The position numbers and the translations under genes were made by a program. A DNA stretch of 64,000 nt from a virus. Shown one piece after another: positions 7,966 through 64,000 of this stretch; within the stretch, counting starts at the first letter, position 1; each line of letters opens with the position of its first letter. The notes under the pieces are model-generated. The model had not been told where the DNA came from and searched no databases. It worked only from the letters and a program-made list of their open reading frames with translations. The stretch lies in IMG/VR virus record IMGVR_UViG_3300042398_001156, positions 1 through 64,000 of that record. One strand, 5' to 3'.

Positions 7966-8420
7966 TTTTTATCTCCTCCATTAAACTCATTTATTTTTAC
8001 CGATAGATATTTTTCTATGGTTTGAGTATTTTTTACGAACACGCCAAGCATCTTCACTTGGTCTTGATAGGCAACAATATATTCATCAAACAATGTAGCA
8101 AGTTTATTTAAATCGGCTTTCATTGCTTCAATTTGTTTATTTTTTTCTTCAATGATTTTTATGTTTGCACCAAGTTCTGCTTGTAATTTTTCTTGGCGAT
8201 TTCTTACGCTGTGTTCATTAGCAGCAATTTCTTCACTACTTTTTTTAACAGATAAGATTTCTTTTCTAAGTGATACAACTTCTTCTTTTAATTGTGGAAG
8301 CAATGCATTTTCTGCTTCTAACAAAATAATTTTTTTAAAAAGTTCTTTTTCATTATTAACAAAGACGGAACTTTTTTCCATTGTTTCTTCTTTTAATTCA
8401 AGTTCTTTTTTAGTTGCCAT
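7962..8420 (-). CDS. Coiled-coil protein next to fibres (152 aa)
   Basis: A charged, helical protein with long heptad-like segments over about residues 1-115 (many lysine, glutamate and leucine residues) and no enzyme motif. It is the first gene after a promoter-like site at 8438-8448 and lies immediately before the two fibres. A role as a fibre-assembly chaperone or a short virion spike partner is an inference from position only. Confidence 0.75.
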   Translation of the reverse strand: MATKKELELKEETMEKSSVFVNNEKELFKKIILLEAENALLPQLKEEVVSLRKEILSVKKSSEEIAANEHSVRNRQEKLQAELGANIKIIEEKNKQIEAMKADLNKLATLFDEYIVAYQDQVKMLGVFVKNTQTIEKYLSVKINEFNGGDKK

Positions 8421-8437
8421 AAATTCCTCACCTTTTT

Positions 8438-36781: not shown

Positions 36782-37681
36782 ATGACAACAGCAGAAATAG
36801 TACAACGTATGCGTGATGACCTTTCAAAAGGTCTAACTAAAGTTGTATCTAACGATGGCTATCGATACTATACGGATACATTAACTCAACAAATTATTGT
36901 ACCGATTACTACCCCAGATGAAACTGCCTTGCTCTATGAAAAGCTAATGATTAATACAATCAGTGCTAAACAAGATGCAAGCAAAGATTTATTCTCAACA
37001 CTACCAAGAGCATCCATGTTCGTAGGTCAACCAGATACTGGTAAGACTTATCGAGCAGAAGAAATCGCTAAACAATGTGGTATCGAACCACTGTTTAAAA
37101 TGTGTAGAGATAATCTTAACCTCGAAACTTTATTCGAAGACTTTAAATTACTGGATGGTAAACCTACATTCGAAGAATCACTTGCTATTAAAATGATGAG
37201 CGATCCACAGAAGCGTAGATACATTATCATCTTAGATGAATTCAATACCCTGTTAACCGGTGTAATGAAAACATTCCAACCTATCCTTGATGATACGTCA
37301 ACCACATTTGAGTATCGAGGTAAGGTCTATCATAAAAATTTTAACTGCAAATTTATTGTTACCTTAAACGATAAAGATAAAGGTATCAGTATTGTTCCCG
37401 ATGCAATCTTATCACGCGTTGAACTCACGTTCTTTGAACCAGTTCCAACCAGTACAATTGCTAAGTGGACAACTGTAAATGTTGAATGGATTAATAATCT
37501 ATTTAATATTTATAAAGTGTTAGGTCTTACTAACATCTTTGGTACACGCCAAGTAAAAATATTATATGGCAAACATATCGATCGTATTCGTAATCATCTC
37601 TATGGCATTTGCAAAATGACAAAGACAGATGATAAGCTACTCGACACATTGCAAGTACAACAACTTGTAAATAAATTATAG
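36782..37681 (+). CDS. MoxR-type AAA+ ATPase (299 aa)
   Basis: MoxR ATPases act as chaperones that remodel protein complexes together with a VWA partner. Walker A is GQPDTGKT (near 82), Walker B IIILDEFN (near 143), with a sensor-type NDKDKG and arginine (RVELTF) after it. Size and layout are those of MoxR. It is separated from a VWA-type protein by one small gene, which strengthens the pairing. Likely used to remodel a host or phage complex such as transcription or replication machinery. Confidence 0.85.
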   Translation: MTTAEIVQRMRDDLSKGLTKVVSNDGYRYYTDTLTQQIIVPITTPDETALLYEKLMINTISAKQDASKDLFSTLPRASMFVGQPDTGKTYRAEEIAKQCGIEPLFKMCRDNLNLETLFEDFKLLDGKPTFEESLAIKMMSDPQKRRYIIILDEFNTLLTGVMKTFQPILDDTSTTFEYRGKVYHKNFNCKFIVTLNDKDKGISIVPDAILSRVELTFFEPVPTSTIAKWTTVNVEWINNLFNIYKVLGLTNIFGTRQVKILYGKHIDRIRNHLYGICKMTKTDDKLLDTLQVQQLVNKL

Positions 37682-37693
37682 AAAGGAATAGTC

Positions 37694-37948
37694 ATGGACT
37701 TTGAATTATTTTATCCCATCACTCAAGAAGAATACGAAAGTATTCAACGCGACCAATGTAACGGTGTTATTAAATACACAATTAAAAAGCCATTAGAACG
37801 ATCAGATCTTAAAGATCTAAATAAAATCATGGCTGTCTGTGGTGTCAACGATACCTATAGACACATTGGATACATAGACTTATGGGATGTATGGCAATCC
37901 GAAGACAAGTTATACTTAAGACACAGAGTCCTTGACTCAACCGATTAA
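37694..37948 (+). CDS. Small acidic protein between MoxR and VWA genes (84 aa)
   Basis: MDFELFYPITQEEYESIQRDQCNG..., 84 residues, mixed alpha/beta and acidic. AAAGGA precedes the ATG. The next gene's ATG starts one base after the stop. Its position between the ATPase and VWA partner suggests an adaptor of that pair. No family recognised. Confidence 0.7.
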   Translation: MDFELFYPITQEEYESIQRDQCNGVIKYTIKKPLERSDLKDLNKIMAVCGVNDTYRHIGYIDLWDVWQSEDKLYLRHRVLDSTD

Positions 37949-37949
37949 C

Positions 37950-39554
37950 ATGGAAGAAAATAAAAAACCAGTTGATCCTATCAAGCAAGCATATGCAAAT
38001 GTGCTTCAGTTTATTACAAACAATTTTTATACAAGTGATGGTAAAGAAATTAAAGTCATCATTAACAATGAAGACACAGATAATATGTACGATGGTAATA
38101 AGATTGTCCTAAGTGAATCACTTATGGATGCTTACGGTACATTAAATTTACCAAGGTTCCTAATTTATTATCATGAATTAGGACACCATTTGTATTCCAA
38201 AGGTTTATTTGTAATGTTAGAAACATGGCGCAAGATAAATACTGGTCCATTAAAATGGATTGAACACTATCACCATCTAATTAATTGGATTGAAGATTTT
38301 TATATCGAAAAGAAATTAAAGAAAGATCATAGTTATCTTACTGATGTCATCGACTGTATTCGCAAACTTAAACCAGAGTATGACATCACACAGCTACCGT
38401 ATGCATTCAATTATTATTATGTATACGAAGCCCCGACTCCTACCTTAACTTATGCTGATCAATTAATATTTAAAGGATACATTGATAAGCTCATGTCCTT
38501 TAGAGACACAAACAAAACCAGATTTGGTATGGGTATACTAACAACACTCAGTATTAAACCAAGTAATGAAACACAATTTGCTACAACAATCATTGAGTTT
38601 TATAACTGGTGCATAAGTAAAAAGATATTTGATAACACAAATAATCCACCACCTCCACCACTTAAAAATCCTAATCAACATATCAATCCTTTAGATAACA
38701 AAGGTCAGATACAACAATTCTTAGATAAACTTGATAAGCAAATAGGACCTGACAACCATTTAAATAATGGAGGAACAAGTACTGACCACAGTAAAACTGT
38801 AGGTGAGTTCGATTTTTACAAAGAAGAATCGCATATTAAACAACCTACTGATTTAATTAAAGGAGAACTTGTTCAAGAAAAAACTTTGATTAATAAAGAA
38901 CTATTGGATATGTCACAACGTATTCAAACAGACCATCATACATTAGATGGATTGTTTACAGCACAATACAAAGATTCTATTACTATACAACCAAAGGTTA
39001 ATGTTCTTAACTTCTTTAATCCACATCGCTTAGCCGATCAGAATTTGTTCTTAGAAAAAGGACATACCTATATGAACGTTGCAATTTATCGCGACATATC
39101 TGGTAGTACTGAAGGTTCTATCCACGAAATCATGAGTGATGTATGTGAACAACTATACAAAGATATACCTGTCGACATCACTTATTATTTATATGCAAGT
39201 GGTGACGTCAGTATTATCCAAGTACCTTATATCAAATGGTCTGATAGTAATAACACACCAAAACAATATGAAGAAGATCCACTCTATAAACAATTAAGTG
39301 GCGGTACAAACAGTGACGCAATTGCCGATGTCATTACCCAACAACTATCTGATAAATGGTTAAACATTATCGTAACCGATGGTGATCTAAACTCATTGAT
39401 GGCTAGACAAAACATTCACGCTTTGCTAAAGAATGTATTTGTCGTCTCTGTATCCAGTGAACTAGATAACAATTTAAAAGGTATTTCTATCCGAAATAAA
39501 AACGATGTAACAAGTATTAATAGTATGTTACAGTCAGTTAATTTGTCTGGTTAA
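37950..39554 (+). CDS. DUF2201-like metallopeptidase/VWA protein (about 534 aa)
   Basis: Residues about 75-90 contain YYHELGHHLYSKG, an HExxH zinc site of the putative metallopeptidase domain (DUF2201_N as I recall). Near residue 385 is a VWA domain with the MIDAS motif YRDISGSTEGS, a conserved GGTNSDA threonine near 450 and IIVTDGD near 472. VWA proteins of this type partner with MoxR ATPases. The ATG at 37950 is preferred over an earlier TTG, though neither has a clear ribosome site. The protein is long and has a linker of asparagine and proline between domains. Confidence 0.85.
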   Translation: MEENKKPVDPIKQAYANVLQFITNNFYTSDGKEIKVIINNEDTDNMYDGNKIVLSESLMDAYGTLNLPRFLIYYHELGHHLYSKGLFVMLETWRKINTGPLKWIEHYHHLINWIEDFYIEKKLKKDHSYLTDVIDCIRKLKPEYDITQLPYAFNYYYVYEAPTPTLTYADQLIFKGYIDKLMSFRDTNKTRFGMGILTTLSIKPSNETQFATTIIEFYNWCISKKIFDNTNNPPPPPLKNPNQHINPLDNKGQIQQFLDKLDKQIGPDNHLNNGGTSTDHSKTVGEFDFYKEESHIKQPTDLIKGELVQEKTLINKELLDMSQRIQTDHHTLDGLFTAQYKDSITIQPKVNVLNFFNPHRLADQNLFLEKGHTYMNVAIYRDISGSTEGSIHEIMSDVCEQLYKDIPVDITYYLYASGDVSIIQVPYIKWSDSNNTPKQYEEDPLYKQLSGGTNSDAIADVITQQLSDKWLNIIVTDGDLNSLMARQNIHALLKNVFVVSVSSELDNNLKGISIRNKNDVTSINSMLQSVNLSG

Positions 39555-47088: not shown

Positions 47089-50000
47089 TTATTTTAATAT
47101 CATAGCTTGTGATTGCCTGTATCGTACGTACTGTCTCCATTGAATGTTCTTAACTAAACGATATGGGTTAGTAGTAGGTCTACGCATACGTCCAAACTTA
47201 TTAAACCAATCTCTGTATATGTTTTCATATTTAGCCCAACGGCCATTACGTCCGTAACGATATCTACGCGGTGTATACTTTTCATAATTTTGAACAGTAT
47301 AAACTAAAGGTATTGTAGTTACAGGAGTATAAGGTTGTCTAGAAACAAATGGTTTAAGTTTAGATTGTTGTAAATTTTCTCTCATAGGTAATGCATTAAG
47401 TACTCTAGTTATTGGTCCTGCAATAGCAAGCTGTCTAATGCTTTGCATAACATCTCTTGTTTCTAAAAATTTAGCAATACCTTTTAATAAAGGCCTTTGT
47501 CTTCCCACTAAAGCTGCACTAGGATCACTTAAAATATTTTGAACATCATATAAACCTAATCCAATACGCAACCCAAAATTTTTACTAACACGTATCCAAC
47601 CACTTTGCATTTCTAATAATTCAAATTCACTATACTGTCCTTCTTCATCTGCGTATTGACCATAAACACCATCGATAACGTCGCTTAATAAAACAACAAT
47701 ACGTGGGTCCGTAATACGATCAATCCAGTTCTTAATAGAACGAACAGGGAATGATAAGTATGGAATGTCAGCAAGTAATTGCATTTCTAAAGGACTACGT
47801 AAGCCATAATTAAAGAAACGTTTAAGAGAATTATTAACAGATTCTTGGAAATTGTAACCACGTAACTGTCTATCAAGTAAGTAACCTGCAATACGACCTA
47901 CGTTTTCTGTATCAGTATTTAAGTCTTCATAAAAAAACTTATAACCAGCTTTTGTAATTCTTAATAATTTACCAAACAAAGTTTTATTAGAAGTACCAGT
48001 ACGCTGTTCTTCTATCTCGTTATACACTTCTTTAAATGATCGTGTAGAAAAATCATTAGCATCTAAAGCTACGCGTTGACTTACAAGATCTCTTAAGTAA
48101 GCAAAACTTTCTTGACGATACGTATCAATCTGTGCATTCGTTTGCATAAAGGCACTGATTTCAAATAAGATATTTTTTAAGTCATTATAATCAGCATTAT
48201 AAATAGGGTTACCATCTACATCTTTATACTTAGTATATTTTTTCAAACGTTTTTCAATACGTGCCCTATAAATATTACCTTTATCTTCTCCAAATTTTAA
48301 GTTGTCATATAAAGTAAAGTATTCTGCAAAGCGTATATCTAATAAAAAGTTAACAGAATCACGTATGCTTGTACGATTTAATATAGCTAACACACCATCT
48401 TTATTTTTTAATTGGTAAGTAGTATCATTTGATACTTTACTTAAATCTTCAATAGACTTAACACCAACAACGTCTTCTAATAAAAATTTTAATACACTGT
48501 CTAAATCTTTTTGGTATACTAAAGCATTATTTTCTAAACGATATTTAATTCTATTTTTTAACTCATCTTGTTTTAATGATTGAGCACCTTCAACGTAACC
48601 ATTAATTCTATATCTAATATTTAAAAAGTTTTGTATAACATCTAATACTTGTTCTTTAGTTATTGCAGTTTTATTTAATAGTAATTTATTTAATTTATCA
48701 TATGATGATTTTACTTCTAATAAAGTAAGAATACGTTCTTCAGATATATCTTGATACATATTATACACATCAAAAGTTAAACCCATAATACGTATAATTT
48801 CTTTATTGTTTTTTAATGTGCCATATATATCAAAGTCTTTATAAATTTCACTGTATAACTGTAACCAAGTATCTAACATGTTACGCATAATAAAACCATA
48901 ATTAAAACGCATTAATAACTTTTCAAGATATTGTAACTGTCCTAACCAAGTTGATAATGGACCTGTAAATTTAAATGGTTTATAAGCAGTTTCATAAGAA
49001 GACATTAAGTTATCAATAGTAACAAGACCTATGTTAAGTACTTCACCTTGCGCTAGTTTATCTTCAAGCAATTTTAAAAGTCCTTTTAATTCTTTCCAAT
49101 TTTTAATGTTTATTTCTTTTAATGTAGGTGATATATCAGATCCTAAATCAATACCATTTAAATCAACGGATGTATATTCTTTACCTTTAAATATAATTTT
49201 ATTAATAGGTGTTTCAAAAGTATAAGACTTTTTAATAGGAGCATTTAATTCTTTAACATAATCAATAATTTCTTGGAAAGATTTAAATTTAATATCTTTA
49301 GAATGTTTACGTCTTCCCAAAAACTTATCCCATCTTGATTTATTTTCCCAAGTAGGATCATCTTTAACAAATAAATCACCAACTTTTTTAGCGAGTCCTT
49401 CAGTATTATAAGCATCTTTTTGTACAACTAAACGAATAAAGTCTCTATTAGATACTAAGTATTCATAGAATTCTTTTACATCATATACACGTTTAGTTGT
49501 TTTATTACCATTGCCATCTAGTAAAACAATATCTTTTTTAAAAATAGAAGCAGCGCTAATTAAAGGATAGATAAGTTTATCCATATTCATTATGTTAGTA
49601 TTTTTAAAACGATTGATATCAGTACTAGTTAATGTAGGTGTGTCACCAAAATATCTTGGAACACCATCTTTAATCATTTCAATTGTTTCACCTTCAGGTG
49701 TGTGTAATAAAAAGATACCGCTTGTAAAATTACGAGCAAATGATTTGCTTAATGCACCCATTTGAATTTCTCGTTTCTTTTCTAATAATTCTTTTAAACG
49801 ATTCTTAAAATACTTTAACGAATCTTTTAAATCTAATTTTTCTATTTGCTCAATAGATAAAATAATATCTTCTTGTTCTTTTTTTGATGTAACAAGTTTA
49901 CCCGCAAGTTGTTTTAATTTGCTTTGGTTAATATACAATTCATCGTTGTTTTCTTTTAAAGATATTTGCGCTGTGCGTATTTCTCTTACTAAATTTTCAA

Positions 50001-53000
50001 TTTTATAAAATGCTAATTCGTTACTAACGAGTCTACTTATTTGGTCGTTAACACTTTCTTTAGAACGGTTGTTATAAGATTTTTCCTTTTCATTTTTTAA
50101 TGATTTAAATTCTTTAAATGAATCTGTTATTTGTTCTATTAATTCTTCAATAGTAATAGGATCTTTTAGTACATCTAAATTTTCATCTTTTAAAAACTGA
50201 CTAACAGATTCAGTTTCTAAATCAGAAGCTTTCGAAATACTTGCAAGTGCTTCATTGTAATCATTCCCATAAGGATTACTTAATTTACTTGCAATAATAT
50301 GTAAGTTATCTTTTGTTGCACGTGTGCTTGTACTATTCTTAACTGTATTAATACGTTGAGATGTTTGCCCTTCTTCTCCAATTGTAACGTACTCTACATC
50401 AACTTCTTTAGATCCTAAAAAGAAATCTTTAGCGTGTTGATATTTAGATGGTAATAACTCTCTTATGTATATACGTTGTTTATAACCCAAAGATTCTATA
50501 ATAGTTTTATAAAGAAAATAACTGTCAGCTAATAAACGAATTTCTTTCATATCTAATTTAGCATTACTATCTGAAGTAACTGCATATCTTGCTTCTATTT
50601 CTTTAAAGGTTCCGTAAGCCATATTAAAGATACGGAATAAACGGAAGCCAACAATACGTAAAGAAACTAATCTTCCTAAAAAATTATTAACTGAATCTTG
50701 TTGGCCATTAATTGTAATAGTTTTATCTAAAGCTTTTTCTAAATCTTTTTCTTGATTAAATATTTTTGAAACTTCAACAATTATATTTAAGTACTGATTA
50801 TAAACTGAGTCTGGTACGTAAATGTCACCGAACATTTCTTTTTTAGAGTATTCATTTATTAATAAATTTGCGGCGTTTAATGCGCTTGCTTCTGATCTAT
50901 AGCTACCTTGTAATTGTGTACTTTTAATTTCAATACGTTTTTCTTTTAAAGCTTTTAACTCTTTATCTTCTATTAATAATTCTTCCATTTCAAAAGTATC
51001 TTTATCCATACCAATAGCAATTGCATTATCGTGGTCATCATCAACACCAAGTGTAATGTCTCTTATACCTACTTTGTTAGCACTTGCTAATACACGGTTT
51101 TTAAACGCACGTAAATATTCACTTACAAGCATACGAATAGGTCCATGTTTAGCAATACCAATAATGTTATTAGCTTCTATAGATTGAGTACCTATAGTAC
51201 CACGATCAACAATAGATTGATTTAAATAATTAGAGGCGTGTCTTTGTATTACGTTTTCTAATTTTTCTTTAGTTTTCTTTTTAGCTTTAGGATTTATAGC
51301 TTTTTTAAATTCACGAATAGCATCTTCGTTTCTTGAAAAATAAAATACATATAAGTATTGTTCATCTACTTCGTCAAATTTATCTACAACAATACCGTTC
51401 TTTTGATAGCCTTTATACTTTTTAATAAACTCTAAATAGTGTGGGTTTAATGAAGTTGCATTTTTATAGAACGTATCAAAGTGTCTTACTACAGCATCAA
51501 CTTTATTAGGACCACTCATTACTTCCGCAAATGAAGTTAATTCTTTAACAACTAAAGCAGCAGCATATAATTTTTTATATAAGAAAACAAGTACATCTTC
51601 TGCATCTTGTTTAAAATAATCTTTATGTTTAACTGCATCTACTGCATCTATATAAATTTTTGTTTCTGGGTTATACGCAACTTCTTTAAACCAACCGTTG
51701 TAAACTTGATCAGTAAAATTAGGTAACATTTGTTTAGCAAAATTATTAGCGTCTTTGTTAATTTTTTCTTTAAGATCTTCAAAACTTAATCCTGCTTCTT
51801 GATCTTTTAAAGCAGTTGAATATATTGTGTTTCTAAATGTACCCAATACTTTTTCAAATGTTAACGTTAATGAATCTACAGAAACAATATTTCTTAAAGG
51901 ATCTTTAAAACTATTCCAAACATTACCTGTTTGATCTCTATTAATATTTGGGAATATGCTTAACGTAGATTTAGAAGTTTGAATTTTTCTTACACCACCG
52001 AATATAAGAATACCGACTTTAGATCCTTGGAAACGTGTAACCGTTTCATTACGTCCAACACTGTATAATTTTCTAAAGAATACTTTTTTTATTATTTCAG
52101 CGTTAGCTTTTTCTTTTCGGTTTCTAATAATTTCATCTACGCCCGTTTTAATAATATATTCTTTATCTTTAACTGATAAATGTTTTTCTAAAACTTCACC
52201 ATTAACAACATTAAAATCTTTACGGCTAACATATTGTGTTAAATCATATTTTTTAGCATCAATAATTTTTTGGAATAAATAAGAACGTGCAGCAATATTG
52301 AAATATCTTTTATCTTCTAATGCTTTTTTAACTGCAGCTGGATCTTTGTAGTCTTTTAATTCAAAGTCAGGCGCTGTGTTTAAGTTAAAAAGTTTTCTTA
52401 TTGCAACGTTTAAAAATTCTTTTTGTTCAGTTTCAGTCCAGTCTAAAGTTTCTGGTATAACAAGATTGTTAATATCTTTTTGAATACCTTCGTATAAAGA
52501 ACCATATAATTCTGACCATTTATATGTTGTTCGTATTTTTTCAAAAACGGATTTACCTACAGAAGTATATTCATAACCAATGTTTTGAATACGTTTATTG
52601 GTTTTAACATCAGGTATTAATTCTTTACGTATTTTTTCTAAGTAGCCTTCTACATATCTTCTTTCTTTTTTAATTGGGTCCCAAGTAAAGTACCCTTCAT
52701 CGTAATAAGATTCTTTAGTGGCATCATCTCGATCAAAACGTCCATCAATAAATTGTTGTTGGCTTAAAGCAATCATACCAATAGTATCACCATCGTTATC
52801 AGCACCCATCATTTTGTACATATATGGGTTAGCTTCAATAGCTGCGTGGTCGTGGTAACCTATAATTTTTAAAGTAGGTGTAGAGTTAGCATCTTGGATA
52901 GGCCACCGTGCTGTTAGTACCCAACCAAATTTACGCCCTAACTTATTCTTATAAAAGCTAATAGTATTGTTTTTATTAACAGTGTATAAAATATTTTCAA

Positions 53001-56000
53001 CACCGTTAATACTGTCATTAGTCATGCCTTGTTTATGTAAATGAATAATAAATGCTTCTAGTTCTTCTTTGTTTTTTAAACTTATTTCGTAATTTAATCC
53101 TGTATCTTTGACATTAATACCACTAAAATTTTGTTTCTTTGCAGTGTAATTAAAAGCGTTAATAAGTTTTAACCAGGTGGTTTCGTCAAGTTTTTCTAGT
53201 TGTAACCAGTCTTTCTTTTTACTTAAAGTTTCCCAAGAGTCTCTAGAAGTTCGTAAATTACCTAAACTTAAATCAATGTTGGCAAGTAATTGTTGTCTAA
53301 CACCAGGGTGTTTACGATATAAATATGTATAGATAGCACCTGAGTCAGATGTTAAAAATTCTTGAGCACGATTCCGTGAAGCTAAATTAATTTCTTTTAA
53401 TTTAATATCAAACCATGATTTATCTTTTGCGTTGCTTTCAAGACGCATGTTAAAGAACATCATGTACTCTTGTGCGTTATCAATTAAAGGTGTTTCTGAT
53501 CTTGCTTTAATATTATCTACGGTTTTTTTAATATCGTAATTGCCATTACTTAATTTAATAGCATAAGCTTCAAGGAACTTTTCAATGCCATAGCTTTGAA
53601 TTTCTGAGTAAATACTTATTTCTTTTCTAAAGTCTTGATCTAATAAAACTTTAAAGTCTACACCTTTCATACCTAAAATTGCAACAAAAGAAGGCGTTAC
53701 AGGTACACCGCCTTCAACGTTACCTTTTATATCACGATTAAATATTGCTAACTCAGGGTTACTGTTAAGCCTTGCGTTTACAGACATCTTTTCTGCGGTG
53801 TGATCAGCATCAGCAATCACATAGATTTCACCGCGTTGTATGTCTAAACCTTTAAAGTTATCAATTACAACATCACCTTTGTCTGTAACACGTTCTATAG
53901 TAATGTCTTCTGTAATAACATCATAAGTAAGATCACTAAATATTTTTACTTTATTGACAGAGTCTTCGCCAAATAAATCTAATAGAATATTATAATAATC
54001 TTCACCAGAATCAAGGATAATTTTTCCTTCTTTAATAACAAATAAATCTTTTAATTCTTTGTCTTTAGACGCAAGTATACGTAAGGCACGTTCAGTTAAA
54101 CCATATTTTTTAATAAACGCTTTATTTAAAATAGCAGATGTTTTATTAGGATTATCTAATAATTCTTTACCACGTTTTTGTAACTCAGAATTAACTAAAT
54201 ATTTTCTAATACTATTCATCGTTTGTTCTAGTACAGCACCCCCAGCACCACGTTGTTGTACCGAAGATTTATTAGCAATAATACTAACACCAAACTTTTC
54301 ACGTATCCCATCTTCAAAACGAATAGCACCTTTAAATCCCCACATGCCTAACCAAATTTTCCAGCCTTCATTAGCACCTAAAATTTTAGCTACTTTTCTA
54401 TCTATAATAAGTGCGTCTTCATAAGCCGCAGGCATATCCATAAAGCCTATTTCTAAATTCATACCTATCTTGTGAAATATGTTTCGTTTATAAAATTCAA
54501 ATTGTTTTTCTGTCAATTGATTAGGAGTAAACGTATTAATAAGTGTGCCATTTTCTGCTCTTCGTTCTAATAAATCAGTTAATAAATCACCCGTAGCAGG
54601 GTTATCTTTAATAGCTTGTTCAAAATATAATTCTAAAAGCTCTTCAAATTTTACAGATCTATTTAACTTGTCTTCAAAACTGTAGATGTTATTAATTAAA
54701 CCATACGGTGTATACTCTAAATATTGTTTATTGTAAGGTAAAATAATACGAGCAGGATTTGTGTTAAGTGTATGTGGCATATCTACGTTAGTAGGTAAAT
54801 ATATAGGTACAGATTTACCGGAACTTCCTTCTGCAGATTTTTCTAAATCAAGCAAGACTCCAATCTTGCTGGCACCCTCACTGGTCCAATCTATAACCAT
54901 GTTTGCACTATAAGTAGAAGGTACTAATAACAAGTATTTACTTGGGTCATTGCTTACAAATCTAGAAAGTGTACGATCTGCTAATCCTTGGTAAATTGTT
55001 TTAGTGTTATTTATTTTTTCTTTTTTACGTGCATAGTTATGAACATCTAAAAATCTAAAGAATCTATTTTTTAGTACTTGAGTCATGTTAATAACTTCTA
55101 AAACAGTATCAGGTATAGCATCATCAAAGACTTCGTCTTTTAAAAACTTTTCTGTAAGAACCTTACCACCTCTAACACCTTCATCATTTAATTCAAATAA
55201 GCCAAGCTTTCTGTATTTTTCATAATGTGATAACACACGTTTAATACTTTCAAAGCTGTGGTCTACACCATCTTCTAAATACACAATATTTTGTGGTAGT
55301 TTAGTATGACCAAGTTTTACTTGACCCTTAGCATCTTTGTAATTAAAGAAACGTTTTAACCAATCGTTAATATCTTCATCTTCTTTAGGTCCTTGTAGTT
55401 TAATTGTTTTAACTTCTAATGTTTTACCAGCTTCAATATAAGTGTAATTAAATTCAAAGGATACTTTACCACCTTTTAAACTAAACTTATAACTATTAAC
55501 AACGCCATTAAAATTATCAAATAAATTAACGATAAAAAAGTTTTCTGTAGGTCTTCTTATTAAAGCAACATCTTCTTTAATAACCAGTGCTTTACGATCT
55601 ACACCTTCATGTACATCTTTATACACACGGGTTACGTTAGGAATGTTTAATTGTTGAATAAACTCTAACCCTTCTTTTTGATTAGCTAAATTTTCTAATG
55701 AATCTAAACGTTCTTCTTTTGCTAGGTTTTCAATGTTTACTTTACCGCCATTTAAAATAGTATAAATGTGATCAAATTCCATTTCTTTTTTAATTGCATC
55801 AAGTTTCTTAACTCTGCTTAAAACTTCTACAAACTTATTAGTAACTGCTTCTGTGTTAACTTCTAAATCAGTTTGTTTTCTGTCAAATTTTAAACGGTTT
55901 AATAAATCAATATTGTTATTAACGTAATCTAATTCATCTTTAATAGCTAATGCAACAAGTGTACGCATGTTTAAAGTATCTATTTTTCCAACAAGATTAT

Positions 56001-59000
56001 CTTTTTCTTTTAATAAACTAAGTAATTTTGTCACACCTTTATTTTTACTAAACAATTCTACTAAGTTAGCAAATCGTTTGTCTTGAATAATATTTGTGTT
56101 TTCTTTTAATTTTAATATATTAAAAAATTTATTTAAGATATTAATTAAATCAGCATCATCAATTTTTAAATCAGGAATTTTTTTAAAGTCAGCACCTAGT
56201 ACTTCAGGTCCAATGTTATTCCAAGTCTCTACTAATTCTTGAAGCTTAACAATTGCTAAAGCTTTAAACTCTTCAGTCTTTTGATTTATTATATCTTCTA
56301 TTTTTTTATCAAACGTAGAACTTGCTGCAACTTTACCGTTGTTTAAAAGAGTAATCATAGTAGTAAGTTCTTGACTACGTTTATTATAAGCGTCTAATAT
56401 TTTATTTTTTTCTGCAGCATCCTTGATGCTTATAATAGTAGAATCAATAAATGTAGCTAAAAGTTTTTTAACTTCAGTAGATTCAATATCTATTTTTCCA
56501 TTAGGACTTTCTTCAATTATGCTCATTAACTTTTCTAAAGCTTGCACACTGTTGTTTAATTCTAATTGTAAGTTATCTAATTCTATTTTTAATAGACTAT
56601 AGTTTGTTATATTCGTAGAACTATAACCATATTTATCTTCATTAAGTTTTTCTTTTAGAACTTTATTAATTCTATACGTTGTATTTTTTGTAATCTCTTG
56701 TAACTTTTTAGAGGTTTTTCTAAGAATTTCAAAAAGAGTTTCTTTTTTAACAACACCATCTTCTACTTTCTTTGTTAAATCTTCAATTGTTTTTTCTACT
56801 TCTTTATATTCTTTTAATGTTTTTGCTTGGTCAGTAGCTAACTCTGTTAGTTTTTCTTTATGAGACTTTCTACCAGAAGTTTCAATAAAAGCAATAAATC
56901 TAAGTACTTGTTGTACTTGTAAATCAATTGAAGTATTTGCTTCGTTATAATTAAAGTCTGTTACTTGATCATCAGCGATGTTTAATTCTTCTTTAACAGC
57001 ATCTGTAATTAACTGTCTTACGCTTGTTAATTTAGGATCACCAGCAATACTATCTACACCTTGTTGTATCTGTGCAGTAAATTCTTCTTCCATTATTTTT
57101 AATAACTCATCTGTGTAAGCTAAAATTTTAGCATCTTCTCGTATGTTATGTCTTAACATCCAACCTTCATTAAAATATTTAAATATAGCATTTCTAATAT
57201 CTAAACGTTTAATAGGATCTTTTTCATTAATGTAGTCAAGTACTAAACTTTTTATAGTATTATATTGTGATTTTTCTCCTGTAAATAAACTTACTTTACG
57301 ACCTTGATTTGTTACTATACTTAAACGACTTTCAACATTTTTAATAACATCTTGTATTAAAATGTTTTCTATTTCACGATCAAACTTACCTATAGCTGTT
57401 AAGTCAGCTTTGTTTAAAGGTATACCTTTTTTTAATTTTTGATTAATTCTAGTTATTTCTTTTTTATTAGCAGCAATTAAACGTGCAGCATCTCCACGTG
57501 TAACAGCGTCGTTAACACTAGCGTACTCCATGCGTTCTCTTATAGCTTTAGGATCGTTATCTCTTATTAATTGGTAATATAAGTTTACTTTTAAAGTACT
57601 AGCAAGACGTTGAATAAATTGATTGTAGTTAGGAAAGTCAAAATCTTCACCGTTATGTGCAATAATAGGTACATTTTTAGGCGCTGCGTTTACTTCGTTT
57701 ATAAAAAGACGGGTAACTTCTATGTCATTACGCTGACCTATTACATACTTAATAGTAGTATCTATACGTTTATCTAATTCATCTTTTATTGTTTTATTTA
57801 AAAGATTATAGTACTCATCTTGATCTGTATTTCTCCAAACTTTTTTAGTTTTAGTTGGGTCAGCATTAACCCAAGCTTTAAAGCCTTCCATTTCTTTTAC
57901 ATACATACGTCTTTGTTGTTCATAAAACCGTGTTAATTCAGGAGACAATTTAGTTTCTACTTTACCGTTTACAAGTTCTTCTGTTTTACCTTCAATAAAT
58001 ATTTGATTTGTCATAAATTGATTTAACACATCAAAAGATAATTTACCTTTAACGTTTTTAAATTTTAATATAGTTAATTGATATGGAATTTTATTACCGT
58101 TACTATCTGTTACAGTTTCCATGTCTAAAATAATAAACTCTTCAGGTAAGTTTTGACCTGCTTTTTTCATCTGGGCCATATAATTAAAAGCAGTAATAAC
58201 ACCATCTGTTATACCATTATGTAGCCCTATATTTTTTTCACCGTCAGTATTAGTATCTTTAATTAGTTGTACTAATTTATCATAACCACCTATGTAATAT
58301 TGACCGGCATCTTTAATAATTTTTTCAATAACCTCAACACTAGTCTGTTCAACATTAATTTTATTTAAGTTTCTATACGTATCTAAATTACTATTACCAT
58401 AAGGCTTTTCTTCTTTTCTAGCACTTATAAGGTTATCATAACGATTCTGTATACCCTTCTTATCGCTTTCAGCTTTTTCTAATAACTCATTTAATTTAGC
58501 AATACGTGCAGGTACTTCTGTAGAGTAATCTTTTAATGCTTCTTTTTCTTTTTTTAAAGCAACAATTTTATCTGTTAGTTCTTTTCTTTGCGCAATTAAA
58601 TCATCGTGTTCTTTTTTATATAAAGTAGTATCATTTGATAATATGTAAGACGCAAGATACTCATCTGATATTTCTTTATTTGTTTCAGCACTTACTTTTT
58701 TTGCAACACGTTTTAACACAGTAGTAGGATCTTGATTACCTTCTGTTTTTAAAACATTAATGACATTATTACTATTTTTAATATTAACTTTATTTTTTGT
58801 TATACGACTTTTTAATTCTATTAACGCTTTTATAGTCTGTTCTAAATCATAATTCTTTTGATTAGTAATTAAATTATTTATAGTTATTTCAAATTCACCT
58901 TTAAGTTCTTTTAATTGGTCTTTACTATATTTATCTTTAGTAGTTTCTACAACAGTAGATTTATTAATTGCGTCTTCTACTTTTTTAAGTTCATCTAATA

Positions 59001-62000
59001 TATATTCTTTTTGTTTAAATGAATTAATATCCATGTTGTCAAAAGGATATGATTTTAATTCTAATAATCTTTCTAATACTAATAAAACTTCTCTTGGTAT
59101 TTCTATAGTTGTAACGTTACTTCCTGTACCAACAACTTCAAAACCTTCTTGTATAGAAGGTTGAGCTACGCCTCTGTTTGCTTTTTTTCTTTTTTCTAAT
59201 TCTTTTTCGTCCGATTTAAAATCAGATTGTTTTACAAAATAAAGTTTTTCTGAGCTAACATAAGTTATTGGTATTTGTAAAGATGTTGACCAGCTACCAG
59301 TTGGTTCATCTCCACCACGTACATATAATCTTTCTGTACTACTATTAACTATGTTTTTTATTTTTGTTATAAACGTATTTAATTGATTTCTTACATAAGG
59401 ATTTTCAATTAAAAATTTAAGTATATCATCGTTTAATAAATTTCTTTTTTTCCAATCAATCTTACTGTATTCTTCTTCTTCTTTATTTAATGCTTCTCTA
59501 AACTTATCAAATAGTGGATGACTTTTTCCAAAGGCATCAAACTCTGCTTGGGTTTTGTCAGTGTTTGGTATTTCACGGCCACTATCTACCCAGTCTTTTT
59601 TTATTTGTTGATAAAAACTTTCTCTTAAATCTGAAGCTTCTTCTAATTTTTCAAACATTAAAACAATTTCTTTTTCGTAAGAAGTTATTTTACTTTCTAT
59701 TTCTTTTAAACCTTCTTCTTTTCCAAGTTTTTCTTTAACTTGTAAAACATTTAAGCTACTTTTTATTTTAAAAGAACTTAAATAATTGCTGTCTTCTTTA
59801 TTAATAGTAGCAATTAATTGTTTAGTTAGCGTTAATAATCCTTGAAGTGTAAATTTCTTTAAGTAAATAAGTTTGTTTAATTCTGTTTTGTAACGTTCTT
59901 TTGTTATATCTTTTTTATTAATTCCTAACTTATGTAAATCATAATTAATTTTAAGTTGCGCGTATGTTGCCCACAAAAATTTACGATATGAAAGCTCATT
60001 AGCTCTATCATGTTTTTTAAATGTAAATGTTTCTTTTTTATTTTTAACATCTTGTATAGCTTTATCAATAACAGTTTCATAATTATCAAAATCTTCCAGT
60101 CCAAAAGTATTAAAGTATTCATCTTGTGCTTGTGCTAAATAATTTTCTGCTTTATTTAAGTATTCACTTTGTGATTTTAAAAGAATATCCGTACTTTTTT
60201 TATCTAGTGTAAGTGAATCTTTTAAATCTTTTTGTTCTTTTGCAGCAATTTCTTTAGCAGCACCTTTAAAACTTCCATAGTAAGCTCTTTGAATTTTATT
60301 AACATGATATCTAGCGATAGCTAACTGTCTTCCTTTACGACTTAAACCATCTTCTGTATCACTAATAATTTTATCACCGTCTGTAAAATATTTATTAATG
60401 TTATCAATTCTATTTTCATTATTTTTAATAATGGATTCATAACCTTTTCTATAAGTACCCCAGGTCTTTTTTGAAACTTTAGAATCTTTTGGATCAACTC
60501 CATTAATTAAAGTTTTTTGAAGTGTATTAATTGTATTAATTTTATCTTCTGCATTTTTAATAAAGTTATTATAATCTTCGACTGTTTGTATATTAATACC
60601 TAATTCAATTAATGATTTAACATTATTTTCAAAAGTATCTTTTTTATATGTATTTCTAATTTTTGCAAATGCTTTATATTCTTTTGTAGATAACCACGTT
60701 TTTGCTTCAATTAAATCATCTCTTATTTTATCGTACAGTTCAAAAAACTTAACAGACTTTTTATTTTTAAATTTGTTTATTTTATCTTGGTTTTCTTTTT
60801 GAGCCTTTGTTAATAATTTTTCATTGAACTCTTCGTATTCTTTAATAAGCGAAGGTGTATTTTCATACACAGCAATTAAAATTTTTTCTTTTCTGTCTTT
60901 TGCTTCTTTATCAATAGTAGTTATTTCATTATTTAAAATAACTTGAGATGATTCTAAAATGTTTATTTGTGTTAATAATTCTAATTCTTTTTTATTTATA
61001 GCAGCAAGATCTGTATTACTAAAATTAAACATAGATTTTAAACTATCTAATCTATTTGTTAATGTTACAGCTTCTTCTTTTAATTTATTGACAGTATTAG
61101 TAATTAATTCCCAGCTTACAATTGTAGGTAATTTTTTAAAATCATAATCTTTATCTCCAGCTACACCTTCTTCTATAGTATCCCATAACAGTCTTTCCCC
61201 TTTATCAAGATTTAATTGACTGCTTAAAATTTTTGTAAGGTCATTAATATTTTGAATACGTTTAGTTACTTCACTTCTTTCCTTAGGAGTCATTGCTTCT
61301 AAAACAGCTTTAGGAAAAATAATATTAATAGCTTTTCTAATTGATCCTGCTGTTTCAATTTGATTAGCAAGGCTAGTTAACTTTGAAATATTATAACGTT
61401 GCTGTGCGTCTGATATAGTTTTTATTTGATCTTCAAGATAACGCAATCTAGTTTGTGCTTGTGCTTTTGTTTTATTGTCAAACTTATTGATAAGAATATA
61501 ACCCATAACTGCTTGTACAAACTCTGGGGTTACATCAAGTAAATGACGACGAGAATTAAAATAATTAACTATGTCTTCTACTTGTTGGTTTATACGTTTT
61601 AATTGTTCTGGATCATTTATAGAATCAACATATTTTTTAAAATCATTTTTATAAATAGTAATAAATTCTTTACGTTGAGATATATTATTAATAGCAATAG
61701 CTATTTCTAAAAAACGAACAAAGTTAATATCTTCTACTTCTGGTTTAATTAACTTTAATAGATTTGTATATCGTTGCATTAATGCCGTGTAATCAATATT
61801 TCTAGAAGGAACTTCATCAATATTTTTAGCGTACTGTTCACTTGTGTAATGAAAACTAATATCTCCTAAAGCTTGTTCAATTATTTTAGCAACAGTTGCA
61901 TTATAGTTTGGATTTGAATTAGGTATAAATATAACTTTAAAAGTATCACGCATTTGTTGTAATATAATTTTGCTAATATTATTAGGTGTAGTTAAAATAT

Positions 62001-64000
62001 ATTTACGTTCAGGTGTAACATTTGTATCAGGCACATCTTCATTTTTTAAAACAATAGTATCTAATCTATTGTTTATATCTTCTACATATGTACCTGCGTT
62101 AATTAAATAACTGACAGAATTATAAATATCTCTTAAGATACTATTTTCAAATACATCTTTTTTTGGATTTGTTTCAAACGTTCCCGTAGCTTCTAAAGCT
62201 TTAACACGTTTAATGTTTTTACGTATTTCTTTATCTCTAAATCTATCAACAGCGTCACTCCAAGACCATTTAGCGCCTTCAAATTTTTGATTAATATAAA
62301 TAGATTTAATCATATTTAATAATGAAACAAAGACAAAAGCATTATCATTAGAACTAAATTTATTTATTAGTACTATCATTAAGTCATCAACAGTTTTGTA
62401 CACTTCAAATAATCTTACAATTTCTTCATAGTCAGTAAATCCTATTTCAGCAAAAAATTGTCTAATTTTATTAACGCGTGTTATTTCATCGTGTTCAATT
62501 TCTTTACCATAAGCATGTGTGTATCCTAATATAAATTTTTTAAAATATGACATAAAATCTTTACTATCATTTAGTAAAGGTATTTTCATTAAACTATATA
62601 ACTCGTAAGGACTTTCAAATTTATCTTCTGATTTTTTACTTCTAAAGCTAGCCATTACTTTATAAACATTATCATCAATAGGAAGATTTAAATCACCTGT
62701 AATAGTTCTAAATTTCTCAACTTCTATATTATAACTTTTTAGGTACTCTTCAAAAATTTCAACGGTAGTAACTTGATTTTTTCTTTCACGATAAAAAATT
62801 AAATTAATAAACATTTCAGTTATATTACGTATTTGTGGGTCTTGAATATTATCTAAGTATTCATTAACGCTTGCATATTTTACTTGAGGTATAGTGGTGT
62901 TTTGGTCTATTACAGCTACTTTATTAGTAGCACCAAACATCGTATCTTCTAATTTATCTATGATACTTTCGATTGTTTTATTAATATCTAAATTATTAAA
63001 AGATAATCCTGGAACAAGTGCAATTAACTGCACTATAATTTCAGACATACTTGTAACTATTTTTCCGCCTTCTGCGTTAGGGTCGTCTAATGTGTATGTT
63101 CTAAATTCTTCTTTAGGTTTTTTATACCAAGCTGCCACATCTTCTTTATTTTTTTTAATTAAATCAGCTAGTATTGAATTGATAGTATCTTTAGTATTGG
63201 GGTCTGCTGCTAAAGCTTTTTCATACAACATAAAAGCTTCACCACCTAAACGAACAGTAGGGGTTTTTCTTGCGTTTGTACTAATCTTTGTTAAGTAAGT
63301 ACTTATAGTTTGCTTCAATAACATTTCTTGTAAACGTAATACTTCATCCTTATTTATACTATCTAAGTTATTATTAAGTTTTAAATCAATAAACATCTTT
63401 CCAAAGTTATATAACTTTTCATAAGAAGAAGATATATTTTGAAATTCATCTTCAGGCAAAGCTTTAATACCCGCTACAAATTGTTCTAAAGTAATGCCTG
63501 GTTGACCTAGATACGTGGCAAATGATCCGGCTACGGATATTAATAGTCTTTTAATATCTAAAAAGTCTTCATCTTTTAATGTATTAAAAACTGTATCTTG
63601 ATCAATATTAAAAAACGATAAAGCGTTTATTAAATCTTCGTTTTTAAAATCTCCGTATTCAAAAATATTTTTATTATTCTTAATAACATAAAGTAAGTTA
63701 GACCAGTTTAAATTAATAGAAGTGCCTTTAATTCTTGCGTTACTTTCTTTAACTTTTTCTTTATAAAATTTACGTGTTTTTCTAACGCTTCTAGCTATTT
63801 GTGTTTCTAAAGTAACACCATCGGTTTGTTTAAGATTAAACATTTCTTTTAATCTTTGTATACCATAAAGTCTTTCTTCTACACGGTTAACAGTATTAAA
63901 CATTGTTAGATTTTCATTATACTTATTATTATCATTAATAAAGTTTGTATTAGCTTCTCTTAAAATTTTTATTCTAGCCGATATTTCTTGTGCTGTAATA
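47089..64000 (-). CDS. Giant virion RNA polymerase-like protein, N-terminus beyond window (at least 5636 aa)
   Basis: The frame stays open from 47089 to the right edge, 32 codons past the first ATG at 63903, which has no ribosome site, so the true start is outside the window. Numbering from that ATG, residues 1 to about 1900 are helical and coiled-coil-rich. D1927, E1929, D2089, H2252 and D2257 form a DEDDh exonuclease signature. YEDALII (3161) and GMWGFKG (3186) resemble the beta-subunit barrel. GADNDGD (3702-3706) fits the DxDGD catalytic motif of the beta-prime barrel. The C-terminal 900 residues are basic and helical, like other large ejected proteins. This matches the single-chain two-barrel RNA polymerases of crAss-like phages. 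It should be packaged and ejected to transcribe early genes. Confidence 0.85.
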   Translation of the reverse strand, partial: ITAQEISARIKILREANTNFINDNNKYNENLTMFNTVNRVEERLYGIQRLKEMFNLKQTDGVTLETQIARSVRKTRKFYKEKVKESNARIKGTSINLNWSNLLYVIKNNKNIFEYGDFKNEDLINALSFFNIDQDTVFNTLKDEDFLDIKRLLISVAGSFATYLGQPGITLEQFVAGIKALPEDEFQNISSSYEKLYNFGKMFIDLKLNNNLDSINKDEVLRLQEMLLKQTISTYLTKISTNARKTPTVRLGGEAFMLYEKALAADPNTKDTINSILADLIKKNKEDVAAWYKKPKEEFRTYTLDDPNAEGGKIVTSMSEIIVQLIALVPGLSFNNLDINKTIESIIDKLEDTMFGATNKVAVIDQNTTIPQVKYASVNEYLDNIQDPQIRNITEMFINLIFYRERKNQVTTVEIFEEYLKSYNIEVEKFRTITGDLNLPIDDNVYKVMASFRSKKSEDKFESPYELYSLMKIPLLNDSKDFMSYFKKFILGYTHAYGKEIEHDEITRVNKIRQFFAEIGFTDYEEIVRLFEVYKTVDDLMIVLINKFSSNDNAFVFVSLLNMIKSIYINQKFEGAKWSWSDAVDRFRDKEIRKNIKRVKALEATGTFETNPKKDVFENSILRDIYNSVSYLINAGTYVEDINNRLDTIVLKNEDVPDTNVTPERKYILTTPNNISKIILQQMRDTFKVIFIPNSNPNYNATVAKIIEQALGDISFHYTSEQYAKNIDEVPSRNIDYTALMQRYTNLLKLIKPEVEDINFVRFLEIAIAINNISQRKEFITIYKNDFKKYVDSINDPEQLKRINQQVEDIVNYFNSRRHLLDVTPEFVQAVMGYILINKFDNKTKAQAQTRLRYLEDQIKTISDAQQRYNISKLTSLANQIETAGSIRKAINIIFPKAVLEAMTPKERSEVTKRIQNINDLTKILSSQLNLDKGERLLWDTIEEGVAGDKDYDFKKLPTIVSWELITNTVNKLKEEAVTLTNRLDSLKSMFNFSNTDLAAINKKELELLTQINILESSQVILNNEITTIDKEAKDRKEKILIAVYENTPSLIKEYEEFNEKLLTKAQKENQDKINKFKNKKSVKFFELYDKIRDDLIEAKTWLSTKEYKAFAKIRNTYKKDTFENNVKSLIELGINIQTVEDYNNFIKNAEDKINTINTLQKTLINGVDPKDSKVSKKTWGTYRKGYESIIKNNENRIDNINKYFTDGDKIISDTEDGLSRKGRQLAIARYHVNKIQRAYYGSFKGAAKEIAAKEQKDLKDSLTLDKKSTDILLKSQSEYLNKAENYLAQAQDEYFNTFGLEDFDNYETVIDKAIQDVKNKKETFTFKKHDRANELSYRKFLWATYAQLKINYDLHKLGINKKDITKERYKTELNKLIYLKKFTLQGLLTLTKQLIATINKEDSNYLSSFKIKSSLNVLQVKEKLGKEEGLKEIESKITSYEKEIVLMFEKLEEASDLRESFYQQIKKDWVDSGREIPNTDKTQAEFDAFGKSHPLFDKFREALNKEEEEYSKIDWKKRNLLNDDILKFLIENPYVRNQLNTFITKIKNIVNSSTERLYVRGGDEPTGSWSTSLQIPITYVSSEKLYFVKQSDFKSDEKELEKRKKANRGVAQPSIQEGFEVVGTGSNVTTIEIPREVLLVLERLLELKSYPFDNMDINSFKQKEYILDELKKVEDAINKSTVVETTKDKYSKDQLKELKGEFEITINNLITNQKNYDLEQTIKALIELKSRITKNKVNIKNSNNVINVLKTEGNQDPTTVLKRVAKKVSAETNKEISDEYLASYILSNDTTLYKKEHDDLIAQRKELTDKIVALKKEKEALKDYSTEVPARIAKLNELLEKAESDKKGIQNRYDNLISARKEEKPYGNSNLDTYRNLNKINVEQTSVEVIEKIIKDAGQYYIGGYDKLVQLIKDTNTDGEKNIGLHNGITDGVITAFNYMAQMKKAGQNLPEEFIILDMETVTDSNGNKIPYQLTILKFKNVKGKLSFDVLNQFMTNQIFIEGKTEELVNGKVETKLSPELTRFYEQQRRMYVKEMEGFKAWVNADPTKTKKVWRNTDQDEYYNLLNKTIKDELDKRIDTTIKYVIGQRNDIEVTRLFINEVNAAPKNVPIIAHNGEDFDFPNYNQFIQRLASTLKVNLYYQLIRDNDPKAIRERMEYASVNDAVTRGDAARLIAANKKEITRINQKLKKGIPLNKADLTAIGKFDREIENILIQDVIKNVESRLSIVTNQGRKVSLFTGEKSQYNTIKSLVLDYINEKDPIKRLDIRNAIFKYFNEGWMLRHNIREDAKILAYTDELLKIMEEEFTAQIQQGVDSIAGDPKLTSVRQLITDAVKEELNIADDQVTDFNYNEANTSIDLQVQQVLRFIAFIETSGRKSHKEKLTELATDQAKTLKEYKEVEKTIEDLTKKVEDGVVKKETLFEILRKTSKKLQEITKNTTYRINKVLKEKLNEDKYGYSSTNITNYSLLKIELDNLQLELNNSVQALEKLMSIIEESPNGKIDIESTEVKKLLATFIDSTIISIKDAAEKNKILDAYNKRSQELTTMITLLNNGKVAASSTFDKKIEDIINQKTEEFKALAIVKLQELVETWNNIGPEVLGADFKKIPDLKIDDADLINILNKFFNILKLKENTNIIQDKRFANLVELFSKNKGVTKLLSLLKEKDNLVGKIDTLNMRTLVALAIKDELDYVNNNIDLLNRLKFDRKQTDLEVNTEAVTNKFVEVLSRVKKLDAIKKEMEFDHIYTILNGGKVNIENLAKEERLDSLENLANQKEGLEFIQQLNIPNVTRVYKDVHEGVDRKALVIKEDVALIRRPTENFFIVNLFDNFNGVVNSYKFSLKGGKVSFEFNYTYIEAGKTLEVKTIKLQGPKEDEDINDWLKRFFNYKDAKGQVKLGHTKLPQNIVYLEDGVDHSFESIKRVLSHYEKYRKLGLFELNDEGVRGGKVLTEKFLKDEVFDDAIPDTVLEVINMTQVLKNRFFRFLDVHNYARKKEKINNTKTIYQGLADRTLSRFVSNDPSKYLLLVPSTYSANMVIDWTSEGASKIGVLLDLEKSAEGSSGKSVPIYLPTNVDMPHTLNTNPARIILPYNKQYLEYTPYGLINNIYSFEDKLNRSVKFEELLELYFEQAIKDNPATGDLLTDLLERRAENGTLINTFTPNQLTEKQFEFYKRNIFHKIGMNLEIGFMDMPAAYEDALIIDRKVAKILGANEGWKIWLGMWGFKGAIRFEDGIREKFGVSIIANKSSVQQRGAGGAVLEQTMNSIRKYLVNSELQKRGKELLDNPNKTSAILNKAFIKKYGLTERALRILASKDKELKDLFVIKEGKIILDSGEDYYNILLDLFGEDSVNKVKIFSDLTYDVITEDITIERVTDKGDVVIDNFKGLDIQRGEIYVIADADHTAEKMSVNARLNSNPELAIFNRDIKGNVEGGVPVTPSFVAILGMKGVDFKVLLDQDFRKEISIYSEIQSYGIEKFLEAYAIKLSNGNYDIKKTVDNIKARSETPLIDNAQEYMMFFNMRLESNAKDKSWFDIKLKEINLASRNRAQEFLTSDSGAIYTYLYRKHPGVRQQLLANIDLSLGNLRTSRDSWETLSKKKDWLQLEKLDETTWLKLINAFNYTAKKQNFSGINVKDTGLNYEISLKNKEELEAFIIHLHKQGMTNDSINGVENILYTVNKNNTISFYKNKLGRKFGWVLTARWPIQDANSTPTLKIIGYHDHAAIEANPYMYKMMGADNDGDTIGMIALSQQQFIDGRFDRDDATKESYYDEGYFTWDPIKKERRYVEGYLEKIRKELIPDVKTNKRIQNIGYEYTSVGKSVFEKIRTTYKWSELYGSLYEGIQKDINNLVIPETLDWTETEQKEFLNVAIRKLFNLNTAPDFELKDYKDPAAVKKALEDKRYFNIAARSYLFQKIIDAKKYDLTQYVSRKDFNVVNGEVLEKHLSVKDKEYIIKTGVDEIIRNRKEKANAEIIKKVFFRKLYSVGRNETVTRFQGSKVGILIFGGVRKIQTSKSTLSIFPNINRDQTGNVWNSFKDPLRNIVSVDSLTLTFEKVLGTFRNTIYSTALKDQEAGLSFEDLKEKINKDANNFAKQMLPNFTDQVYNGWFKEVAYNPETKIYIDAVDAVKHKDYFKQDAEDVLVFLYKKLYAAALVVKELTSFAEVMSGPNKVDAVVRHFDTFYKNATSLNPHYLEFIKKYKGYQKNGIVVDKFDEVDEQYLYVFYFSRNEDAIREFKKAINPKAKKKTKEKLENVIQRHASNYLNQSIVDRGTIGTQSIEANNIIGIAKHGPIRMLVSEYLRAFKNRVLASANKVGIRDITLGVDDDHDNAIAIGMDKDTFEMEELLIEDKELKALKEKRIEIKSTQLQGSYRSEASALNAANLLINEYSKKEMFGDIYVPDSVYNQYLNIIVEVSKIFNQEKDLEKALDKTITINGQQDSVNNFLGRLVSLRIVGFRLFRIFNMAYGTFKEIEARYAVTSDSNAKLDMKEIRLLADSYFLYKTIIESLGYKQRIYIRELLPSKYQHAKDFFLGSKEVDVEYVTIGEEGQTSQRINTVKNSTSTRATKDNLHIIASKLSNPYGNDYNEALASISKASDLETESVSQFLKDENLDVLKDPITIEELIEQITDSFKEFKSLKNEKEKSYNNRSKESVNDQISRLVSNELAFYKIENLVREIRTAQISLKENNDELYINQSKLKQLAGKLVTSKKEQEDIILSIEQIEKLDLKDSLKYFKNRLKELLEKKREIQMGALSKSFARNFTSGIFLLHTPEGETIEMIKDGVPRYFGDTPTLTSTDINRFKNTNIMNMDKLIYPLISAASIFKKDIVLLDGNGNKTTKRVYDVKEFYEYLVSNRDFIRLVVQKDAYNTEGLAKKVGDLFVKDDPTWENKSRWDKFLGRRKHSKDIKFKSFQEIIDYVKELNAPIKKSYTFETPINKIIFKGKEYTSVDLNGIDLGSDISPTLKEINIKNWKELKGLLKLLEDKLAQGEVLNIGLVTIDNLMSSYETAYKPFKFTGPLSTWLGQLQYLEKLLMRFNYGFIMRNMLDTWLQLYSEIYKDFDIYGTLKNNKEIIRIMGLTFDVYNMYQDISEERILTLLEVKSSYDKLNKLLLNKTAITKEQVLDVIQNFLNIRYRINGYVEGAQSLKQDELKNRIKYRLENNALVYQKDLDSVLKFLLEDVVGVKSIEDLSKVSNDTTYQLKNKDGVLAILNRTSIRDSVNFLLDIRFAEYFTLYDNLKFGEDKGNIYRARIEKRLKKYTKYKDVDGNPIYNADYNDLKNILFEISAFMQTNAQIDTYRQESFAYLRDLVSQRVALDANDFSTRSFKEVYNEIEEQRTGTSNKTLFGKLLRITKAGYKFFYEDLNTDTENVGRIAGYLLDRQLRGYNFQESVNNSLKRFFNYGLRSPLEMQLLADIPYLSFPVRSIKNWIDRITDPRIVVLLSDVIDGVYGQYADEEGQYSEFELLEMQSGWIRVSKNFGLRIGLGLYDVQNILSDPSAALVGRQRPLLKGIAKFLETRDVMQSIRQLAIAGPITRVLNALPMRENLQQSKLKPFVSRQPYTPVTTIPLVYTVQNYEKYTPRRYRYGRNGRWAKYENIYRDWFNKFGRMRRPTTNPYRLVKNIQWRQYVRYRQSQAMILK

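Follow-up and report, generated by a model that had tools for sequence, protein, structure and literature searches.

In this work we followed up a stretch of 64,000 nucleotides of phage DNA (the window: positions 1 to 64,000 of IMG/VR record IMGVR_UViG_3300042398_001156), the minus strand of which carries a single giant open reading frame (ORF). We consider it probable that the 8,437-amino-acid product of this frame is a late protein with the catalytic core of an RNA polymerase of the single-chain, two-barrel type, and that it is packaged in the virion and ejected with the DNA by an uncultured phage of the short-tailed type. The polymerase core is real and strongly diverged, and represents a new lineage of an enzyme kind that is already known. 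An earlier note on this DNA had proposed a single-chain polymerase with two barrels; the proposal is borne out by the catalytic residues, which are kept in relatives, and by a beta-type barrel in the predicted structure.

The giant gene and its relatives

The frame that carries the polymerase motifs spans positions 47089-72402 of the record, on the minus strand, when the full record (75,916 bp) is read beyond the window, and makes up one third of it. A length of 5,604 amino acids was rejected as an artefact of the window edge, since the frame runs on to record position 72402. Its in-window part is:

47089..64000, minus strand: giant ORF, which closes the block of structural genes on this strand

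Relatives were found by scanning a collection of viral contigs, for which the polymerase region, its alignments and the terminase served as queries. Six further distinct genomes of 70-82 kb (G001-G005 and G007) have the same giant gene, each as one unbroken frame of 7,596-8,228 amino acids counted from the first ATG, with a common N-terminal start of the MAL../MAV../MAT..YxRPA type. Another genome, G006, holds a near-identical copy and was left out of the seven distinct members (the six relatives and the window phage) to which the counts below refer. The presence of the same intact frame in seven genomes rules out both an assembly artefact and an isolated case. The relatives are 22-57% identical to the window's version in the core of the giant protein, 60-94% in the terminase (G001-G005 tested; 84% for G007) and 64-75% in the capsid protein (G001-G005 tested). 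The core, at about residues 5,670-7,000 of the 8,437, has fewer insertions in G004. Residues invariant in the seven members cluster at positions 1-100, 400-700, 4,756-4,925, 5,800-7,200 and 7,800-8,437 of the giant protein, so that the invariant islands are the two ends, an exonuclease-like site and the polymerase region, while the remainder of the protein diverges.

Catalytic motifs of the two barrels

The features of the polymerase region are as follows.

53782..54543, minus strand: beta-type double-psi barrel region (DPBB-B), from the fold match and the motif alignment to Escherichia coli beta
54403-54423, minus strand: YEDALII, in the beta-type barrel region
54328-54360, minus strand: KIWLGMWGFKG, in the beta-type barrel region
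54226-54252, minus strand: RGAGGAVLE of RGAGGAVLE(Q), counterpart of beta SRMNIGQILE
52700..52911 (ends approximate), minus strand: beta-prime-type double-psi barrel region (DPBB-A), from the invariant motifs and a masked crAss-like profile match
at 52911, minus strand: ARWPIQD, ahead of DxDGD; ARWPIQ is the counterpart of beta-prime NRAPTLHR
52786-52806, minus strand: catalytic GADNDGD, residues 3700-3706 of the 5,604-residue reading
51979..52032, minus strand: conserved block R...[SG]K......G..RK, about 258 residues after DxDGD in the seven-member alignment

GADNDGD, YEDALII and GMWGFKG, on which the earlier note had relied, all lie where it had placed them, in one frame. DNDGD corresponds to residues 3702-3706 of the 5,604-residue reading, which puts the catalytic motif at residue 6,535 of the full 8,437. 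All seven members have, in this order, K-[TI]-W-[LA]-G..G-[FY]-K-G, RG..G, and a segment made of R-x-P-x-Q-D and G-[AG]-D-[NT]-D-G-D that sits 440-515 residues past the lysine motif. No member departs from the two lysines, RxPxQD or DxDGD, the catalytic motif reading DNDGD in six members and DTDGD in one; loss of the aspartates in relatives had been set beforehand as one finding that would refute the proposal, and none has lost them. YEDAL is no fixed signature, as the [YF]ED[AT] form is found in only four of the seven, while G002, G003 and G007 read PLDEI, PLDVI and GLDTI at the YEDAL site. Two further signatures, absent from the earlier note, are RGAGGAVLEQ and ARWPIQ, whose beta and beta-prime counterparts are listed above. 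The R...[SG]K......G..RK block is, by its position alone, a tentative candidate for the bridge helix.

The motifs of E. coli beta line up one by one with those of the giant protein (GDKMAGRHGNKG...VLNPLGVPSRMNIGQILE with GWKIWLGMWGFKG...IANKSSVQQRGAGGAVLE), although the score by itself is weak, and a phage chain, L030 (IMGVR_UViG_3300001533_001295), which has GLYGNKG and ISRGN, forms a bridge between them, from GFKG to GLYGNKG. The combined pattern of K..GxKG, RG..G..E, RxP and DxDGD with their spacings is present in the protein and in none of 3,000 shuffled versions, while RxP and DxDGD alone were met in four of the 3,000. This pattern was composed after the sequence had been seen, so that conservation in relatives is a stronger test than shuffling.

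The same conservation bears on the idea that the barrels are no more than relics with a structural role, their polymerase fold having lost catalysis and serving in packaging or DNA binding. That the protein as a whole diverges very fast would suit a relic, but the residues that are invariant in the seven members are exactly the catalytic ones, which makes this explanation very unlikely.

Predicted fold

Two AlphaFold models were made, the first of 1,196 residues with a 5-row alignment and the second of 641 residues with a 7-row alignment. In a Foldseek search with the first, all 50 PDB matches listed were chains of RNA polymerases and, to judge by their labels, second subunits. The second model has a mean predicted local distance difference test score (pLDDT) of 59, with values mostly between 60 and 90 over the beta-type barrel. 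A VIA-align match pairs model residues 13-266 with residues 828-1119 of the RPB2-like subunit of African swine fever virus (Z 13.1, root-mean-square deviation 3.2 Å over 166 residues), and all 50 rows listed are RNA polymerase second subunits with Z of 12-13, these rows covering model residues 3-266 only. Foldseek with the better model also lists isolated, small and designed double-psi barrels, which we do not attribute to either of the two barrels. A search of BFVD gave weak matches only, poxvirus RNA polymerase subunits among them. Structures of crAss-like, P23-45 and YonO polymerases are not among the fold matches listed, which does not exclude such kinship. Of the two barrels expected in a predicted structure, the beta-type one is thus supported by the model; the beta-prime-type one, where the model is weak, is assigned from its sequence.

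Kinship of the beta-prime-type barrel

A crAss-like profile matches the beta-prime-type barrel in register with a score of 27.8, which is unchanged when the seven columns of the catalytic motif are masked. None of 300 column shuffles reaches the masked score (their maximum being 23.7), and among 137 segments taken across the giant protein, the segment containing this barrel ranks best against the profile. The crAss profile was the deepest used, and other families therefore received a weaker test. These comparisons suggest that the nearest known relative of the barrel is the crAss-like RNA polymerase, at a distance. Accordingly the crAss-like style proposed earlier applies to this barrel; it does not extend to the phage, whose genes are API480-like (see below), nor to the DAQ-Y signature found upstream of the catalytic barrel in the crAss alignment, which is missing from the seven-member alignment.

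Profile matches to beta-prime-like chains (73-93% probability) were rejected as evidence of kinship: these chains had been chosen by GADNDGD, and their scores fall to about nil once the motif is masked. YonO-type kinship, also suggested in the earlier note, found no support beyond the motif, the hhalign probability being 0.9%, and 0.1% after masking, in what is a weak test with a single YonO sequence as target. The idea of a separate branch fared better, as the polymerase region has no convincing match among 50,697 cultured phage records (tblastn); a match to a single Listeria record was judged to be due to chance.

Evidence against a polymerase

Several observations weigh against a polymerase. 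The Pfam models RNA_pol_Rpb1_2 and Rpb2_6 have no match in the record, though they match in all 14 control genomes; a PDB sequence search with the polymerase region returned no RNA polymerase, and its searches of Pfam, PHROGs and PDB gave no meaningful match at all. Both AlphaFold models are of modest confidence (mean pLDDT 46 for the first, which was poor, and 59 for the second), and in the beta-prime-type barrel the catalytic loop is poorly modelled, with pLDDT of about 30-45. Furthermore, scores against DNDGD-bearing beta-prime sequences vanish on masking of the motif, which indicates that they were partly circular. A further alternative is that the motifs are chance matches in a long helical protein that is no polymerase. 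That searches at the HMMER level match nothing agrees with this explanation, but the empty shuffles, the conservation in seven genomes, the second-subunit fold match at Z 13 and the in-register match of the crAss profile all oppose it, and we hold it to be the least probable of those considered.

Phage type and proposed delivery of the giant protein

Upstream of the giant gene, on the same strand, lie the major capsid gene and then a 113-amino-acid gene, in the order capsid, small gene, giant gene. The terminase, portal, scaffold, capsid, small post-capsid gene, PolA and primase have counterparts in Paenibacillus phage API480, with 25-44% identity in aligned pieces and, for the scaffold, by phmmer only. 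The capsid protein matches only the Paenibacillus phages API480 and SV21, and the best terminase and portal matches fall in the same group. API480 is a podovirus with a tail of 12 x 8 nm (PMC6937236). Because terminase, portal and capsid go with API480, the gene content assigns the window phage to the API480-type (podovirus) group and not to Crassvirales.

This assignment bears on the possibility that the giant protein comes from a long-tailed phage and is its tape measure protein fused to a polymerase, in the manner of P23-45. The gp96 of P23-45 is a protein of precisely this kind, and the N-terminus of one of the seven members weakly matches a tape-measure PHROG (E-value 8e-4). Against this, the five structural genes from terminase to the post-capsid gene match a podovirus, and a non-exhaustive search for tail genes turned up neither a tail tube gene nor a tail chaperone gene. 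A fused tape measure is consequently unlikely, and a shade more so than a polymerase that is made late and acts inside the infected cell, for instance on late genes, which we also regard as unlikely. P23-45 offers a precedent for the latter, as it has two polymerases of the two-barrel kind, one virion and one non-virion (PMC10770324); however, the place of the giant gene at the end of the structural block beside the capsid gene, the size of 8,000 amino acids, the hydrophobic N-terminus and the conserved ends look structural or ejected.

We therefore return to a packaged and ejected polymerase, in which case the phage and its six relatives probably inject the giant protein with their DNA to switch on their first genes. 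Presence in the virion is suggested by the position and size of the gene, and activity of the core by its likeness to known enzymes. Packaging, ejection and early transcription are inferred by analogy with P23-45 gp96 (PMC10770324) and with phi14:2 gp66 and N4 virion RNA polymerase (vRNAP) (PMC10770324, PMC7886860), which serve as models for ejected virion polymerases. On this view the virion would carry the protein, the hydrophobic and glycine-rich N-terminus of which would enter the cell envelope as the DNA comes in, and the core would use the arriving DNA as template for the phage genes that are expressed first. As in cellular polymerases, Mg2+ would be bound by the DxDGD aspartates, and both lysines of the beta-type barrel would contact the RNA 3' end and the nucleoside triphosphate.

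The argument for a Gram-positive host, which the earlier note had read from strong ribosome sites, is weak. A Shine-Dalgarno-like match, even loosely defined, is found at 17 of 33 starts checked; the genome contigs, scanned with the polymerase region and with the terminase, yielded no relative and hence no host contig; and a capsid and terminase of the API480 type are also reported for a podovirus of Sinorhizobium (PMC13299392).

Three other genes of the window deserve mention. A possible head-tail adaptor (15343-16680) has a C-terminal BspA-type leucine-rich repeat region (PF13306, E-value 2e-9). The replication block contains a DprA-like (DNA_processg_A) protein (34163-34939). An AAA_5 ATPase is followed by a protein that resembles, by eye only, a MoxR/VWA-type partner (36782-39554), a pair that is unusual at such a phage size.

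Other regions of the giant protein

Outside the polymerase region, two parts of the giant protein stand out.

57634..58125, minus strand: exonuclease-like (DEDD/DnaQ-like) domain, with exo I DMET and exo II AHNGEDFDF
47092..48555, minus strand: C-terminal region of 488 residues, the most conserved, 35-63% identical in relatives and of no known family

The D-x-E-T and AHNGxxFDF motifs (exo I and exo II) are invariant in the seven members, in which the acidic motif of exo III was not located; HNIRED was dropped as exo III because it is not present in relatives. Models and structures of PolB-type exonucleases match the domain below threshold only. It is possible that this domain trims RNA or DNA ends, and that the conserved C-terminus is a docking or packaging part. 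The N-terminus of the giant protein is glycine-rich and hydrophobic, hence apparently of the membrane type, and would suit membrane insertion. Neither terminal region has a match among the cultured phages (tblastn), and the zinc-protease motif HExxH is absent from every member. A tentative extension would make of the chain of about 8,400 residues an independent ejection machine, uniting DNA entry by a membrane-inserting N-terminus, transcription by the two-barrel polymerase and trimming or proofreading of nucleic acids by a 3'-5' exonuclease; this we consider doubtful.

Comparison with known systems

The giant protein is the largest among the phage proteins examined in this analysis, with 8,437 amino acids compared with 5,002 in P23-45 gp96 and about 4,550 in a crAss-like chain. 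Its closest phage relatives in structural genes, API480 and SV21 (45 kb), lack it: API480 itself was checked for the gene, neither phage has a match to the polymerase region, and SV21 matches the window phage in terminase, PolA and capsid.

The crAss-like gp66 of Cellulophaga phage phi14:2 (PDB 6VR4) and its Crassvirales relatives likewise have both barrels in one chain, are very divergent and are giant proteins, and the best unbiased match comes from the R-x-P-[TN]-[QE] segment that precedes the catalytic motif. They differ in that the lysine motif K-W..G-F-K-G of the giant protein is that of cellular beta whereas crAss polymerases have DAQ-Y instead, in that DNDGD stands against DFD[IV]D, and in that crAss-like phages have several proteins, of up to about 4,550 amino acids, rather than one chain. 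In Thermus phage P23-45 a virion polymerase fused to a giant protein is established (PMC10770324), and gp96 is likewise a two-barrel polymerase with DxDGD inside a giant phage protein. However, gp96 has no detectable profile similarity to the giant protein, its motif is at residue 779 instead of 6,535, and P23-45 is long-tailed, unlike the API480-type window phage. YonO of SPbeta is also a single-chain two-barrel polymerase with DNDGD, but has only 839 amino acids and no detectable similarity outside the motif. N4 vRNAP (Schitoviridae) is a giant virion polymerase of a short-tailed phage with a similar genome size; it is of the T7 type and not two-barrelled. A T7-type polymerase had no match in the seven records, where the control matched nowhere either, so that absence is not shown.

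A bare GGNGCNGAYAAYGAYGGNGAY scan of the viral contigs returned many other giant ORFs, of up to 3,790 amino acids, with R-x-P about 35-45 residues before GADNDGD (in L054, L078, L063, L034, L018, L072, L031/L022/L037/L076 and L052/L045/L026); three of them, when tested, had no match among cultured phages. In L030, beta-like GLYGNKG and beta-prime-like GADNDGD are about 570 residues apart, as in a fused beta/beta-prime type. The giant ORFs of the scan suggest that giant two-barrel polymerases are more widespread than described.

In conclusion, the protein described here would extend the single-chain two-barrel RNA polymerases by a lineage separate from those of crAss-like phages, P23-45, YonO and jumbo phages, and would mean that a polymerase packed into a giant late protein has arisen also in the API480-type (podovirus) group. 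Its combination of a cellular lysine pattern in the beta-type barrel with a crAss-like beta-prime barrel makes it a possible link between the two clades of Chaban et al. (PMC10770324).

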